IMG/VR virus record: IMGVR_UViG_3300046458_000151
Span: 1-22,376 of that record
Reading direction: 5' to 3' (one strand)
Source of the DNA: a virus
Length of the DNA: 22,376 nt
The notes beneath the pieces are model-generated. The model saw only the letters and a list, made by a program, of their open reading frames with translations, was not told the DNA's origin and did no database searches. Positions 14,197 to 18,780 of the stretch are shown in pieces (the stretch's first letter is position 1; each line of letters begins with the position of its first letter). The position numbers were made by a program, and so were the translations under genes.

Positions 14197-17100
14197 TCAG
14201 GTCCTTGTCTGCCGGAAGCTGACGCCACCCGGTCGCCATGAATCAGCAACGGCTTTATCGGCCGCTTGCTTGATCTGGATTTGCAGGTTCTGAGCGAGTG
14301 CCGTCTGATCGAGCGCCAGCCCCTCGGAGCTCCGATCTTCGACCGAAATACTCACCGGGGCATTAATTTGGACATTTGACCCGCCGCCACCGATTGCGCG
14401 CACCCCAAGAGCACCGCCAGACGTACGGGTCAGCGGCATGATTGCCTCAGGCCCTGCTTCACCCATCACGCCGGCTCCTCCCCCAGACATCCCGAACGCC
14501 GTAGGCGAACTGACAATGCCGTTGGTGAAGGCGCCGCCATTGGCGAACATCTGCACGCCATCCAGCCACGCCCCGCCTTTAGCTTGCGGGAAGTAGGAGG
14601 ATGAATACCCAGCCTGCGATGCGCCGAGGTTTGAGGACGTCGCGCCTGCGGAACCAGCAGCCAGCCCGTTACCACTTCCGCCACCGAAGTAACTCAGGCC
14701 CGCGCCAAACAAAGCGCTCAGCAGCGAAGACGAGGCCTGGCGTGTTGCGATCCGAGCCATGTCGGCAAGGATTGACTTCGCGAAGTCCGAAAAAGAAAGC
14801 TTCCCGGTCAGCGCGAAATTGACGATGGCGTCTTCCATGCTGCTGAAGGCGTTGGTGAAGAGCATCTTCGTCTGCCCGGCTATGTCGCGCGCGCTGTCGA
14901 GGTAACTTTCCCAAGCGGAGGTTGCTCCGTTGGTCCAGTCGCCCTGGGCAGCCTGCACATCGGCGTAATTCTGCTGGATCTGGTCGGTCGCCTTTTTGTT
15001 GGCATTGGCCAGCGCCTGGGATTTCTTCGCGAACTCCTCCTCGGACATGTTGCGAGAGGGGTCGGATTTCTGATTCGCCAGGTCCAGCGTCTGCTGGGCG
15101 TACCGATCTTGTTGCGCATTGAGCTGTGCATCGAGCGCGTTCTGCCGATCACCGCGACCGACGCCCAGCACAGCACGCTGCCCGGCCAATTCCAGGGCCT
15201 TCTGCTGCTGATCCAGCGCCTGCACGTACTGGGCAATAGAGCGAGTCTGTTTGTCGATCCGCCCCTTTTCGTTATTGGCCAGCACCTCCAGTTGGCTATC
15301 AGCGTCCTTCTGCGCCTTGACCATGCTGGTCCGCGCGTCAGCGATCTTCTGGTCCAGCTGGATGCGCTGCTCGCCCGTGGTAGACGACTTGTCGCGCACG
15401 GCCTGCAGGGCAGCGATCTCAGCCTCGTAGGCAGCAGTGACGTCGCCCTTTTCCTGCTCAACGATCGCAATGCGCTGGCTGCTGTATGACTCAGCCGAAA
15501 CCAGCCCGGCCTTTTGAGCTGAATCCAGTTCTTTTTCGAGGTTCTGGTAGTGACCGGTGATCGACTTCAGGTTGTTCTGAGCGTCGTTGAACCCGGTCAG
15601 GTTCAGCTGGTTGGCCGGGCCTTTCGGGTCCTTGAACTTGTCGTTGATATTGGCGATGTTCTTGTCGACGGTCGCCTGGCTGAGTCGGGCGTCATTCGGA
15701 TCAGTCTTCCGGATGTCGTCCAGCCACTTCTTATATTCCTTTACCGCCTCGGTGCGTTTTTGTTCATTGGTCCAGGATGACTTGGTGAGCGCATCGATCT
15801 TGGCCATGGCCCCGATCGAATCCTGCTGCGCTTTCGCTTGCTCGGCATCATATTTGGCGATGTCGGCGTTGGCAGCCTTCGTATCCTTGAGGAAGGTGAG
15901 CTTGTCGGTGTAGTACTCGATCATCTCCTGTTTGTTTTGAAACAGGCCGACTTCACCGTTTTGCGCTTGGTCGAGATCGCGCTGGGCGTTGGCGATATCC
16001 GTATCGATATCGGAGCGCCCGAGATTCTTCAAACCGTCTGCAGCTTTCACCACCGCCAGATAACCGCGCTCCCAGAAGCTCAGGTTCTCAAGGATCTTCG
16101 GGGTGCGCTCGTTGATCGCGTCAGCGTATTGCTCGGTTGCGAGTTTCACCGCCCCTGCATGGTCGCCCTGCTCTTCCAGAGCGGCGATCTGCGAGTACAC
16201 GGACGCGGTCAGATAGTGATACTGCTCGTTCAGCGCCGCAGACGCCTTCACGGGGTCATCGGCCAGCTTCACGAACTCGGCAATGGTCGCGCTAACGGCG
16301 GTTCCGGTCGCTTTCTGCATTCCGATGGCAGCCTGGCTGATCGCACCAAAGCTATCGCCAGCGATTTTGCCATTCGAAGCGAGAGTAGCGAGTACCTCGG
16401 CGGCCGCGCCGGTTGTGCCGACGGTTGCGCTTACCTGGCGCGTCAGTGACCCCAGTTGGCTGGCACTGACGCCTGCGGCGTTGCCGGTTGTGATCAGCGC
16501 CTTGTTGTAACTATCGGCTTCCTCGCTGCCCTTGTAATAGGCGATGCCGAGGGTGGCCACGACTGCGGCAACCGCAGCGATGGGCGCAAGAATCGCAACC
16601 AAACGCAAAGCAGAAGCGCCCGCGCTGGTCCCGATCTCCAGGAGATTGTGAGCAGCCACACGAAAGTTGCCTTCGGCGAGGGCATTGCCCAACTGAAGAA
16701 CGTTTTCGCGCGCGCCTTTGGTGTTCAGGCTGAATTTCTGAGTTTCGTCACCGAGGCCTTTGATTTTCTGGCGCGCGGCGTCGATGGATGCCGAGAAGGT
16801 TTTGAAGTCATCCTCGCCAATGTTGCCGTCGGCGCGGTGCTTGTTCAGCAGCTCTTGTTGATCGTCAAGCTTTTGCAGCGCCGCCAACGCAGGGCTGATC
16901 TTGCCCAGCAGTGCCTGTAAGCCCTCGGCCTGTACGCCTACCGCTGCGGCTGCATCTTTCGCAGCTTTCGCGCCCTGCTGATTCGTTCCGACAAGAGCGT
17001 CAGATTCAGCCTGCAGACGTTTTTGCAATGCTGCCAGGCTTGCAGTTGAATCGCGACTGGCGTCCATCGCGCTGGAAGTGCTGCTGACGCTAGTCGTCAG

Positions 17101-17367
17101 TCGCTGGTAATACTCGCTGTTTTGGAGCGAGGTTCTCGCTACCTCGATCAGCCGAGCCTTCGCCTCATCGGTCGCCTGAGCGGCACGCGCTTCCGCCTCG
17201 GCCAACTTGTCAGCAGCGTCAGCTGTCTTTTTGAAACCGGCGGTGACGTCGTCGGCGGCTTTCTCGGCCTTTACGCCTGCCGCGGTGAGTTTGTCGAGAT
17301 CGGTCGCGGCTTGGGCGGCATCACCCGAATCAACCGCGATCCCCAGTTCTGCGATTGTGCCCGACAT
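14197..17367 (-). CDS. H: Tail tape measure protein (lambda gpH-like)
   Basis: A 1056-aa protein; lambda H is 853 aa, so the tail may be somewhat longer. It is dominated by Ala/Lys/Gln-rich helical coiled coil (about 15-230 and 450-800). A hydrophobic segment at about 252-276 (LVAILAPIAAVAAVVATLGIAYY) could insert into the host membrane during DNA ejection. The C-terminus at about 824-870 (TNAFSSMEDAIVNFALTGKL, FSDFAKSIL) is the signature of lambda-type tape measure C-terminal domains, followed by a Gly/Ser-rich tail. The start at 17367 has GGAG 5 nt upstream. The GT chaperone frameshift product ends just upstream, matching the lambda G/GT-H order. Confidence 0.94.
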   Translation of the reverse strand: MSGTIAELGIAVDSGDAAQAATDLDKLTAAGVKAEKAADDVTAGFKKTADAADKLAEAEARAAQATDEAKARLIEVARTSLQNSEYYQRLTTSVSSTSSAMDASRDSTASLAALQKRLQAESDALVGTNQQGAKAAKDAAAAVGVQAEGLQALLGKISPALAALQKLDDQQELLNKHRADGNIGEDDFKTFSASIDAARQKIKGLGDETQKFSLNTKGARENVLQLGNALAEGNFRVAAHNLLEIGTSAGASALRLVAILAPIAAVAAVVATLGIAYYKGSEEADSYNKALITTGNAAGVSASQLGSLTRQVSATVGTTGAAAEVLATLASNGKIAGDSFGAISQAAIGMQKATGTAVSATIAEFVKLADDPVKASAALNEQYHYLTASVYSQIAALEEQGDHAGAVKLATEQYADAINERTPKILENLSFWERGYLAVVKAADGLKNLGRSDIDTDIANAQRDLDQAQNGEVGLFQNKQEMIEYYTDKLTFLKDTKAANADIAKYDAEQAKAQQDSIGAMAKIDALTKSSWTNEQKRTEAVKEYKKWLDDIRKTDPNDARLSQATVDKNIANINDKFKDPKGPANQLNLTGFNDAQNNLKSITGHYQNLEKELDSAQKAGLVSAESYSSQRIAIVEQEKGDVTAAYEAEIAALQAVRDKSSTTGEQRIQLDQKIADARTSMVKAQKDADSQLEVLANNEKGRIDKQTRSIAQYVQALDQQQKALELAGQRAVLGVGRGDRQNALDAQLNAQQDRYAQQTLDLANQKSDPSRNMSEEEFAKKSQALANANKKATDQIQQNYADVQAAQGDWTNGATSAWESYLDSARDIAGQTKMLFTNAFSSMEDAIVNFALTGKLSFSDFAKSILADMARIATRQASSSLLSALFGAGLSYFGGGSGNGLAAGSAGATSSNLGASQAGYSSSYFPQAKGGAWLDGVQMFANGGAFTNGIVSSPTAFGMSGGGAGVMGEAGPEAIMPLTRTSGGALGVRAIGGGGSNVQINAPVSISVEDRSSEGLALDQTALAQNLQIQIKQAADKAVADSWRPGGVSFRQTRT

Positions 17368-17377
17368 GAGTGCTCCG

Positions 17378-18081
17378 CTATTTCGATTCGCTCATGACGA
17401 GCAACGCCTCGGCCTCCATGACCCTAAGGTCCGGAAATATCCTGGCTGTTTGTTTTTTCGTGAAACCGAGGAAGGCGGTCACGTCGCTGATAACGCTGTA
17501 GTCCAGCCCCACGGCGCCGCCAAAGCCGGTACGCCACTGCGTGGACATGGCGTTGAACGTCAGAAATGCGGGCCAGGCGTCAGGAAAGACGTCGAACTCT
17601 TCATCTGGGATGTCCGCGCGGGACAAGCCGAAGGCCGCCAGATCGGAATCCGACGGGCCTGCTTCGTACATTAGGCGCGCGACCGCTCTCAGTTTCCCAG
17701 GCGCGCGACCGCAAAAGCGTTCTGGTAGGCAGTGACGACTGCGTCACCGGCACCGGCAGAGGTTTCGACCAGCGCGCGAATGGCGTCAGGCGTGAACTTG
17801 TCCTCAAAGCCCCAACCCACCACGAGCTCGCTCACTTGCTCGACCTGCCGCTCAATGTTCGCGTCGGTGATGTCGACCAGAGTGATTTCGTCGCCCTTCT
17901 CCTTGAACCGCTCCTGATCATCTTTCGCCGCCTGCTGCCAGCCGGCGAACAGAGTGGCCAGCTCTTTGCGGTTACGGTACTTGAACTCAAACGGCACCTT
18001 CACCGTGGTACCACCTACGCGTGGGATTTCCACGTCCGCCTTGAACGTGGCGGACTGAGCGATTTTGAACTTGGTCGCCAT
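17378..18081 (-). CDS. GT: GT tail assembly chaperone, made by -1 ribosomal frameshift
   Basis: A joined product of 234 aa: the 130 residues of G, then reading shifts by -1 at G-GGA-AAC (17692-17698) and continues LRAVARLMYEAG into a 97-aa second domain (T). The T frame is exactly -1 relative to G and is open across the junction, from a stop in that frame at about 17744-17746 down to 17378. The T part resembles DUF1799-type phage proteins (MSTQWRTGFGGAVGLDYSVI). The ATG at 17671 has no ribosome binding site, supporting expression only by frameshift. In lambda, G and GT coat and recruit the tape measure for tail tube assembly, and their ratio matters. Frameshifting here is strongly suggested by the sequence but not shown. 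Confidence 0.85.
17673..17712. repeat. 14-bp direct repeat bracketing the slippery site
   Basis: AGGCGCGCGACCGC occurs at 17673-17686 and 17699-17712 (plus strand), perfect copies 26 bp apart, one on each side of the frameshift heptamer. Because the offset is 27 minus 1, both copies encode the same peptide AVARL in the GT product: the upstream copy in the G frame and the downstream copy in the shifted frame. Confidence 0.85.
17689..18081 (-). CDS. G: G tail assembly chaperone
   Basis: A 130-aa acidic/basic helical protein (FKIAQSATFKADVEIPRVGG, then ELATLFAGWQQAAKDDQERF) in the position of lambda G, between the tail tube and tape measure genes. It ends ARLGN-stop, with the slippery heptamer overlapping its last codons, so most ribosomes should stop here and a minority make GT. 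The start at 18081 follows the tube-protein stop by 3 nt; AAGG is 11-14 nt upstream, so initiation may depend on coupling. It is a cytoplasmic assembly factor and not expected in the virion. Confidence 0.88.
   Translation of the reverse strand: MATKFKIAQSATFKADVEIPRVGGTTVKVPFEFKYRNRKELATLFAGWQQAAKDDQERFKEKGDEITLVDITDANIERQVEQVSELVVGWGFEDKFTPDAIRALVETSAGAGDAVVTAYQNAFAVARLGN
17692..17698 (-). promoter_or_regulatory. GGGAAAC slippery heptamer for -1 frameshifting
   Basis: On the minus strand the G-frame codons CTG-GGA-AAC-TGA contain G-GGA-AAC, a canonical X-XXY-YYZ heptamer; lambda uses GGGAAAG at the same place. After slippage GGG-AAA is paired and reading resumes at CTG-AGA-GCG. The G stop codon follows immediately. 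The motif is bracketed by two copies of a 14-bp direct repeat (17673-17686 and 17699-17712). Confidence 0.85.
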
Positions 18082-18084
18082 GGA

Positions 18085-18735
18085 TTAGGCCGCCTTGTAG
18101 CGAGTTGGACGCGAGGCGAGCGACAAAGTGATAACGCGGGCCATCACGTTGTTGCGCGTAAGGGTCGGAGTCGGTGTGATCGACACATAGGCGTTGTAGT
18201 AGATGGTCGCGCCGTTTGGCAGGGTAAGACGGAGCACGCGCGGCTCGCGATCGTCGTCGGCGGCTTCGACGGCCGCAACGTACGGCAGGCTGTCGTCATC
18301 GGCGACAGTCAGCGACAAGGTGATCGGGTTCTTGGTGGTTGGCAGTTGGCGGTCGTCGGACTCTTCCAGGAAGCCGAACGTAGCGAACTGCTGCTCACCA
18401 CCGGAACTGCTGTTGTCGGTAATCTGGCTGATCTGGGCCCAGTTGCTAACAGAGCGCACAGACCCGACACCGGAACCAGCGGTGTACACAGAGGTTTTGG
18501 TGGTGTCGATCCCTTCCAGCTCGAAGCTGTCGGTGTCGGAGCCAGTCACGCGGACGACCTTGTCGTTCAGGCGGGTCCAGCCCGAGGTCACGACCAGCAC
18601 GTCACCATCATCGAAGCCGTTTGCAGCGGCGCTGGCCTCAGGCGGCTTGGCGTTGGTGATGGCAGTGAAAGGCTTCGGCACGCTGTAGGCCGTGGCAATT
18701 TCAAAGATCGAGCCGTTGGGAAGAATGGCACTCAT
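18085..18735 (-). CDS. V: Major tail tube protein (lambda gpV-like)
   Basis: A 216-aa beta-rich protein (lambda V is 246 aa) in the tube-protein position between the tail terminator and the G/GT chaperones. It starts MSAILPNGSIFEIATAYSVP, has a compact beta-sandwich pattern (VVRVTGSDTDSFELEGIDT) and ends in strands TLTRNNVMARVITLSLASRP. It should form the hexameric rings of the non-contractile tail tube. ATG at 18735 is chosen because GAGG lies 8 nt upstream; the frame continues upstream only into the hairpin leader. It is preceded by a terminator-like hairpin, so tube-protein expression may be set separately from the head genes. Confidence 0.85.
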   Translation of the reverse strand: MSAILPNGSIFEIATAYSVPKPFTAITNAKPPEASAAANGFDDGDVLVVTSGWTRLNDKVVRVTGSDTDSFELEGIDTTKTSVYTAGSGVGSVRSVSNWAQISQITDNSSSGGEQQFATFGFLEESDDRQLPTTKNPITLSLTVADDDSLPYVAAVEAADDDREPRVLRLTLPNGATIYYNAYVSITPTPTLTRNNVMARVITLSLASRPTRYKAA

Positions 18736-18758
18736 TGGGTTTTCCTCGTACAGAAATG

Positions 18759-18780
18759 AAAAACCCCGCACTCGGCGGGG
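18759..18780 (-). terminator. Terminator-like hairpin before the tail tube gene
   Basis: On the minus strand CCCCGC-CGAGT-GCGGGG is followed by five T. It lies between the tail terminator gene (stop 18806) and the tube-protein ribosome binding site. It is the fourth such hairpin in the late operon, but its leader (CATTTCTGTACGAGG) differs from the other three. Confidence 0.75.

Follow-up and report, generated by a model that had tools for sequence, protein, structure and literature searches.

The G and T reading frames of this virus most probably form a -1 frameshift pair of the lambda G/GT type in the tail chaperone gene of a Pseudomonas-type siphophage, and the 14-bp direct repeat around the slippery site is most probably incidental. 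We give this reading of the sequence a probability of roughly 0.93. The window, meaning the whole 22,376-base stretch that was analyzed, is the IMG/VR virus record IMGVR_UViG_3300046458_000151. The overlapping G and T frames sit between the genes for the major tail protein and the tape measure (Table 1). G matches PF08748 Phage_TAC_4 (E 1.2e-34), scoring 119.7 bits where the cut-off is 21.1, and T matches Pfam DUF1799 (E 7.2e-21). On the minus strand, G ends in ...AFAVARLGN* (GCG GTC GCG CGC CTG GGA AAC TGA), and the -1 frame read from AAA gives KLRAVARLMYE..., with a predicted GT junction of AVARLGN-LRAVARL. An earlier note on this DNA had pointed to a GGGAAAC heptamer in the G/GT pair, and it is present exactly, in the correct phase, with TGA as the next codon.

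Table 1. Coordinates of the features at the G/GT junction and of the neighboring genes in the window
Feature	Position	Strand	Basis
Slippery heptamer G_GGA_AAC, predicted -1 ribosomal frameshift site	17692..17698	-	Sequence and conservation in relatives
TGA stop of G, abutting the heptamer on its 3' side	17689..17691	-	Sequence
Upstream 14-mer copy GCGGTCGCGCGCCT, coding for AVARL in G	17699..17712	-	Sequence
Downstream 14-mer copy, coding for AVARL in T	17673..17686	-	Sequence
Gene G, tail assembly chaperone, 130 aa	17689..18081	-	Pfam Phage_TAC_4
T frame (-1), C-terminal extension of GT	17378..17695	-	Pfam DUF1799, tblastn
Major tail protein gene, upstream neighbor of G	18085..18771	-	phrog_584, E 1.5e-80
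Tape-measure gene, downstream neighbor of T	14197..17367	-	phrog_24 tail length tape measure protein, E 2.6e-198

Related loci were collected by peptide patterns, none of which contained the heptamer. Among the distinct related junctions, GGGAAAC is unchanged and in the same position in every one (112/112). Since GGA accounts for only 8% of the Gly codons in the structural genes of the window, codon preference cannot explain the heptamer. Of 110 relatives, 107 have the stop codon of G right against the heptamer, and three have one more codon between the two. The later stop (GGA AAC TCN TAA) is seen at loci L064, L065, L066, L161, and L162, an arrangement indicating that contact between the stop codon and the heptamer is not obligatory. 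At the homologous position, GGGAAAC is also found in more distant phages of Pseudomonas, Acinetobacter, Stenotrophomonas, Xanthomonas, and Acidovorax, and AAAAAAC is found in HK639, phiES15, PHB10, pAEv1818, SO-1, and two Drexlerviridae. The 112 distinct junctions with one heptamer extend the known conservation of tail-chaperone frameshifting.

In the mechanism that we propose, the majority of ribosomes would end at the TGA, yielding G (130 aa). A minority would slip back by one base on G_GGA_AAC (GGA to GGG, AAC to AAA) and continue in the T frame, yielding the GT fusion. By analogy with lambda, G would serve to coat the tape-measure protein, with the T portion of GT recruiting the tail-tube protein. 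We infer the slippage itself, its efficiency, and the chaperone roles of G and GT; the conserved heptamer, register, T frame, and gene order place the locus in the textbook class of tail-chaperone frameshifts.

The programmed -1 frameshift of phage lambda G/GT was reportedly described by Xu, Hendrix & Duda in 2004. Its slippery heptamer is GGGAAAG, where the window has GGGAAAC. In both, the tail chaperone gene adjoins the tape-measure gene, the -1 shift lies near the 3' end, and the T extension is in the -1 frame. However, the chaperones of the window are of the TAC_4 and DUF1799 families, and the likeness to lambda rests on gene arrangement and frame. The mechanism of the lambda frameshift has been reviewed (PMC5009743). 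A second point of comparison is Burkholderia phage KL1, in which a -1 frameshift between gp18 and gp19 was predicted at a GGGAAAC directly before the TGA of the first ORF (PMC3483164). This likeness rests on the site layout, which the window shares, whereas an extra gene separates the KL1 frameshift pair from the tape measure and the T of the window abuts it. Pairs of TAC_4 and DUF1799 also occur in the Pseudomonas phages phiAH14a and Medea1, in Escherichia phage HK639, in Cronobacter phage phiES15, and in Drexlerviridae such as BrunoManser. Their T segments are all homologous to that of the window, as are the G segments of phiAH14a, Medea1, HK639, and phiES15. In these phages, as in the window, an XXXAAAC heptamer immediately precedes the stop codon of G. 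Unlike the window, the enterobacterial phages and pAEv1818 have AAAAAAC rather than GGGAAAC, and none of these TAC_4/DUF1799 phages has a perfect flanking repeat.

The second feature of the junction is the 14-mer AGGCGCGCGACCGC (plus strand), which the earlier note had seen on both sides of the heptamer. The two copies are indeed perfect and offset by 26 bases, so that, on the minus strand, GCGGTCGCGCGCCT lies on either side of GGGAAAC-TGAGA. Translating both frames confirmed that the -1 shift restores the phase of the repeat and that AVARL appears twice across the GT junction. Within the window, no other direct repeat reaches 10 bases with its copies spaced fewer than 60 apart, and no further copy of AGGCGCGCGACCGC was found with 2 mismatches allowed. 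A 14-mer repeat appears in none of 60 Markov shuffles (0/60), and even given AVARL at both sites, a perfect 14-bp repeat has P = 0.0055. The shuffle statistic is misleading, though, because the flanks of the closest relatives already match at 11 to 12 of the 14 positions. In the literature, our search turned up general work on frameshifting and the GGGAAAC prediction for KL1, but no paper that deals with this repeat.

The relatives keep the heptamer and the 26-nt register, but their "repeat" is imperfect, and a perfect match of the flanks (14/14) is unique to the window among the distinct related junctions. The exact 14-mer occurs upstream in 1 of 109 distinct junctions, which is the window, and downstream in 4 of 109, window included. 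The exact 40-bp junction was found in no viral contig besides the window, and a degenerate version, searched in bacterial genomes, gave no match. In a tree built from flanking gene sequence, the window is sister to L003 (support 0.985). The flanks of L003, GCGGTCGCCCGCCT upstream and ACGGTCGCGCGCCT downstream, are one substitution from the window in each copy. The upstream substitution (GCC to GCG) is silent in G, and the downstream one (ACG to GCG) changes Thr to Ala in T. With the flanks of the closest relatives already so similar, the last two or three matches are attributable to point substitution.

Why, then, are the flanks so similar to begin with? The alignment columns have a conserved ..A-R-L-G-N at the end of G and ..A-R-(A/L)-x-Y-E at the start of the T extension, and the likeness is due to the Ala-Arg that both constrained segments contain. 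In this phage group, the last residues of G (..AVARLGN) and the first of the T extension (..RAVARLMYE) are separately constrained peptides, each with Ala-Arg, and the two point substitutions on the window's own branch made the flanks identical in DNA. It is possible to ask whether the resemblance is older. In the clade of the window, the flanks match at 11.4 of 14 positions at offset 26, compared to a background of 3.9 of 14. In the most distant group, the match at offset 26 is 6.7, no better than at other offsets (6.8 at offset 31). Offset 26 is thus indistinguishable from other offsets in that group, and a very old kinship of the two peptide segments has no support, although the high match in the clade of the window leaves it conceivable. 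Altogether, the repeat is a lineage-specific coincidence on two separately constrained peptide ends, and it is very unlikely to have any function. Two convergent peptide motifs, and not a duplication, can thus lie behind a striking in-phase repeat of this kind at a recoding site.

It is nonetheless tempting to see a duplication in so regular a pattern, and the earlier note had suggested that a recent micro-duplication created or tuned the junction. A tandem 26-bp duplication that turned one continuous G-T gene into two frames joined by a frameshift would fit the perfect 14-bp repeat and its offset of 26, and on paper, dropping one 26-bp unit would put G and T in one frame. The relatives contradict this suggestion. 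All 112 distinct junctions, down to ~40% G identity, share the same register and align without an indel, none has a perfect repeat, and none differs from its close relatives by 26 bp in the junction alignments. The sister taxa are separated by point substitutions, with L003 two such changes away, and the G/GT frameshift is shared with homologues in many other phages. As far as these sequences reach, a 26-bp duplication is excluded from the history that they cover, and we see next to no chance that the junction arose in this way. Gene conversion could instead have homogenized the copies, which are identical in the window. However, the two branch substitutions hit different copies, each converging on the other copy, and the downstream A/G position changes repeatedly across the tree. 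In addition, two copies from one genome resemble each other no more than copies from different genomes do: from the nearest group to the most distant, the mean flank match, of 14, is 11.42, 10.0, 8.2, and 6.7 within a genome and 11.50, 10.07, 7.6, and 6.6 between genomes. A permutation of within- against between-genome identity gave p = 0.75 for the closest 18 junctions; extended to all 110 junctions, the same test gave p = 0.0002, which is a result of clade structure. This near equality indicates that the copies do not co-evolve inside one genome, and we consider homogenization by conversion extremely improbable. In this virus, the perfect repeat could also act as a deletion hot spot, at which recombination between the copies removes the heptamer and the stop and fuses G to T in frame. 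None of our results points to this, and we would be very surprised if it were so; if it were, the hot spot would occasionally give rise to an always-fused chaperone, a natural means of shifting the G:GT ratio.

A different role for the repeat would be to stimulate or tune frameshifting as an RNA element, and the earlier note had suggested a stimulatory role for the GC-rich downstream copy. In the fold of the window, the two GCGCGC blocks can form a hairpin with the heptamer in its loop, and the first T codons show mildly raised synonymous codon identity (0.79, compared to a mean of 0.69 for the gene). In pseudoknot-free RNAfold predictions, however, the window stretches at and just downstream of the heptamer do not outdo shuffled sequence in folding (z +0.15 to +0.8 at the heptamer), and the mean folding z over 108 relatives is -0.46, compared to -0.20 in control stretches inside T. 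RNAalifold, also pseudoknot-free, returned no consensus structure when given 37 diverse sequences; with 17 close ones, the consensus was weak and long-range (-5.8 kcal/mol). An Rfam scan gave no match. The downstream sequence diverges while the heptamer stays, and the exact repeat is missing from every relative that retains the heptamer. A stimulatory role for the repeat, or for its downstream copy, did not hold up and is very improbable. Could T, on the other hand, be a separate protein made by re-initiation, without frameshifting? An ATG in the T frame at 17669-17671, 17 nt past the G stop, opens a 97-aa ORF that gene callers would list, and in relatives short T ORFs have been annotated separately by gene callers. 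Of 110 relatives, however, 82 lack an ATG within the first 16 T codons and 72 lack all of ATG, GTG, and TTG there, so separate initiation of T is no general route. T-frame homology (tblastn) begins upstream of this ATG, at the heptamer codon AAA, and in the relatives it runs unbroken to the heptamer, adjoining G in constant register. Re-initiation would also leave the invariant heptamer unexplained, and we regard it as highly improbable.

The -1 frameshift reading has a direct use in annotation. Many phage records present T as a short ORF of its own or give it a tape-measure name, and it should be annotated as the extension of GT. Often, T is unannotated or begun at a downstream ATG, as in Escherichia phage HK639 (L159, 1234-1540) and in L150-L168 generally, where both G and T carry the name "tail length tape measure protein" (RefSeq/PHROG-derived; phrog_569, phrog_680). 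The tape-measure name on G and T appears to be a naming error that was carried over. In one record, from a bacteriophage in human faeces (L162, MT836437.1), the T that follows GGGAAAC diverges from the family past ~15 residues and ends at 84 aa, which suggests that the record, an unverified one, contains either a frameshift from sequencing or a T that is broken.

Two relatives are without the canonical heptamer, namely Klebsiella phage vB_KM5a1-KLB16 (L156, near 1255-1275) and Pectobacterium phage Pappous (L165, near 590-605). Their G ends read TCA AAG GAT TAA or CAA AAG TAA, and the -1 T frame is retained, resuming straight after an A_AAG tetramer. The sequences suggest that in these phages a single-tRNA slip on A_AAG may replace the XXXAAAC site.
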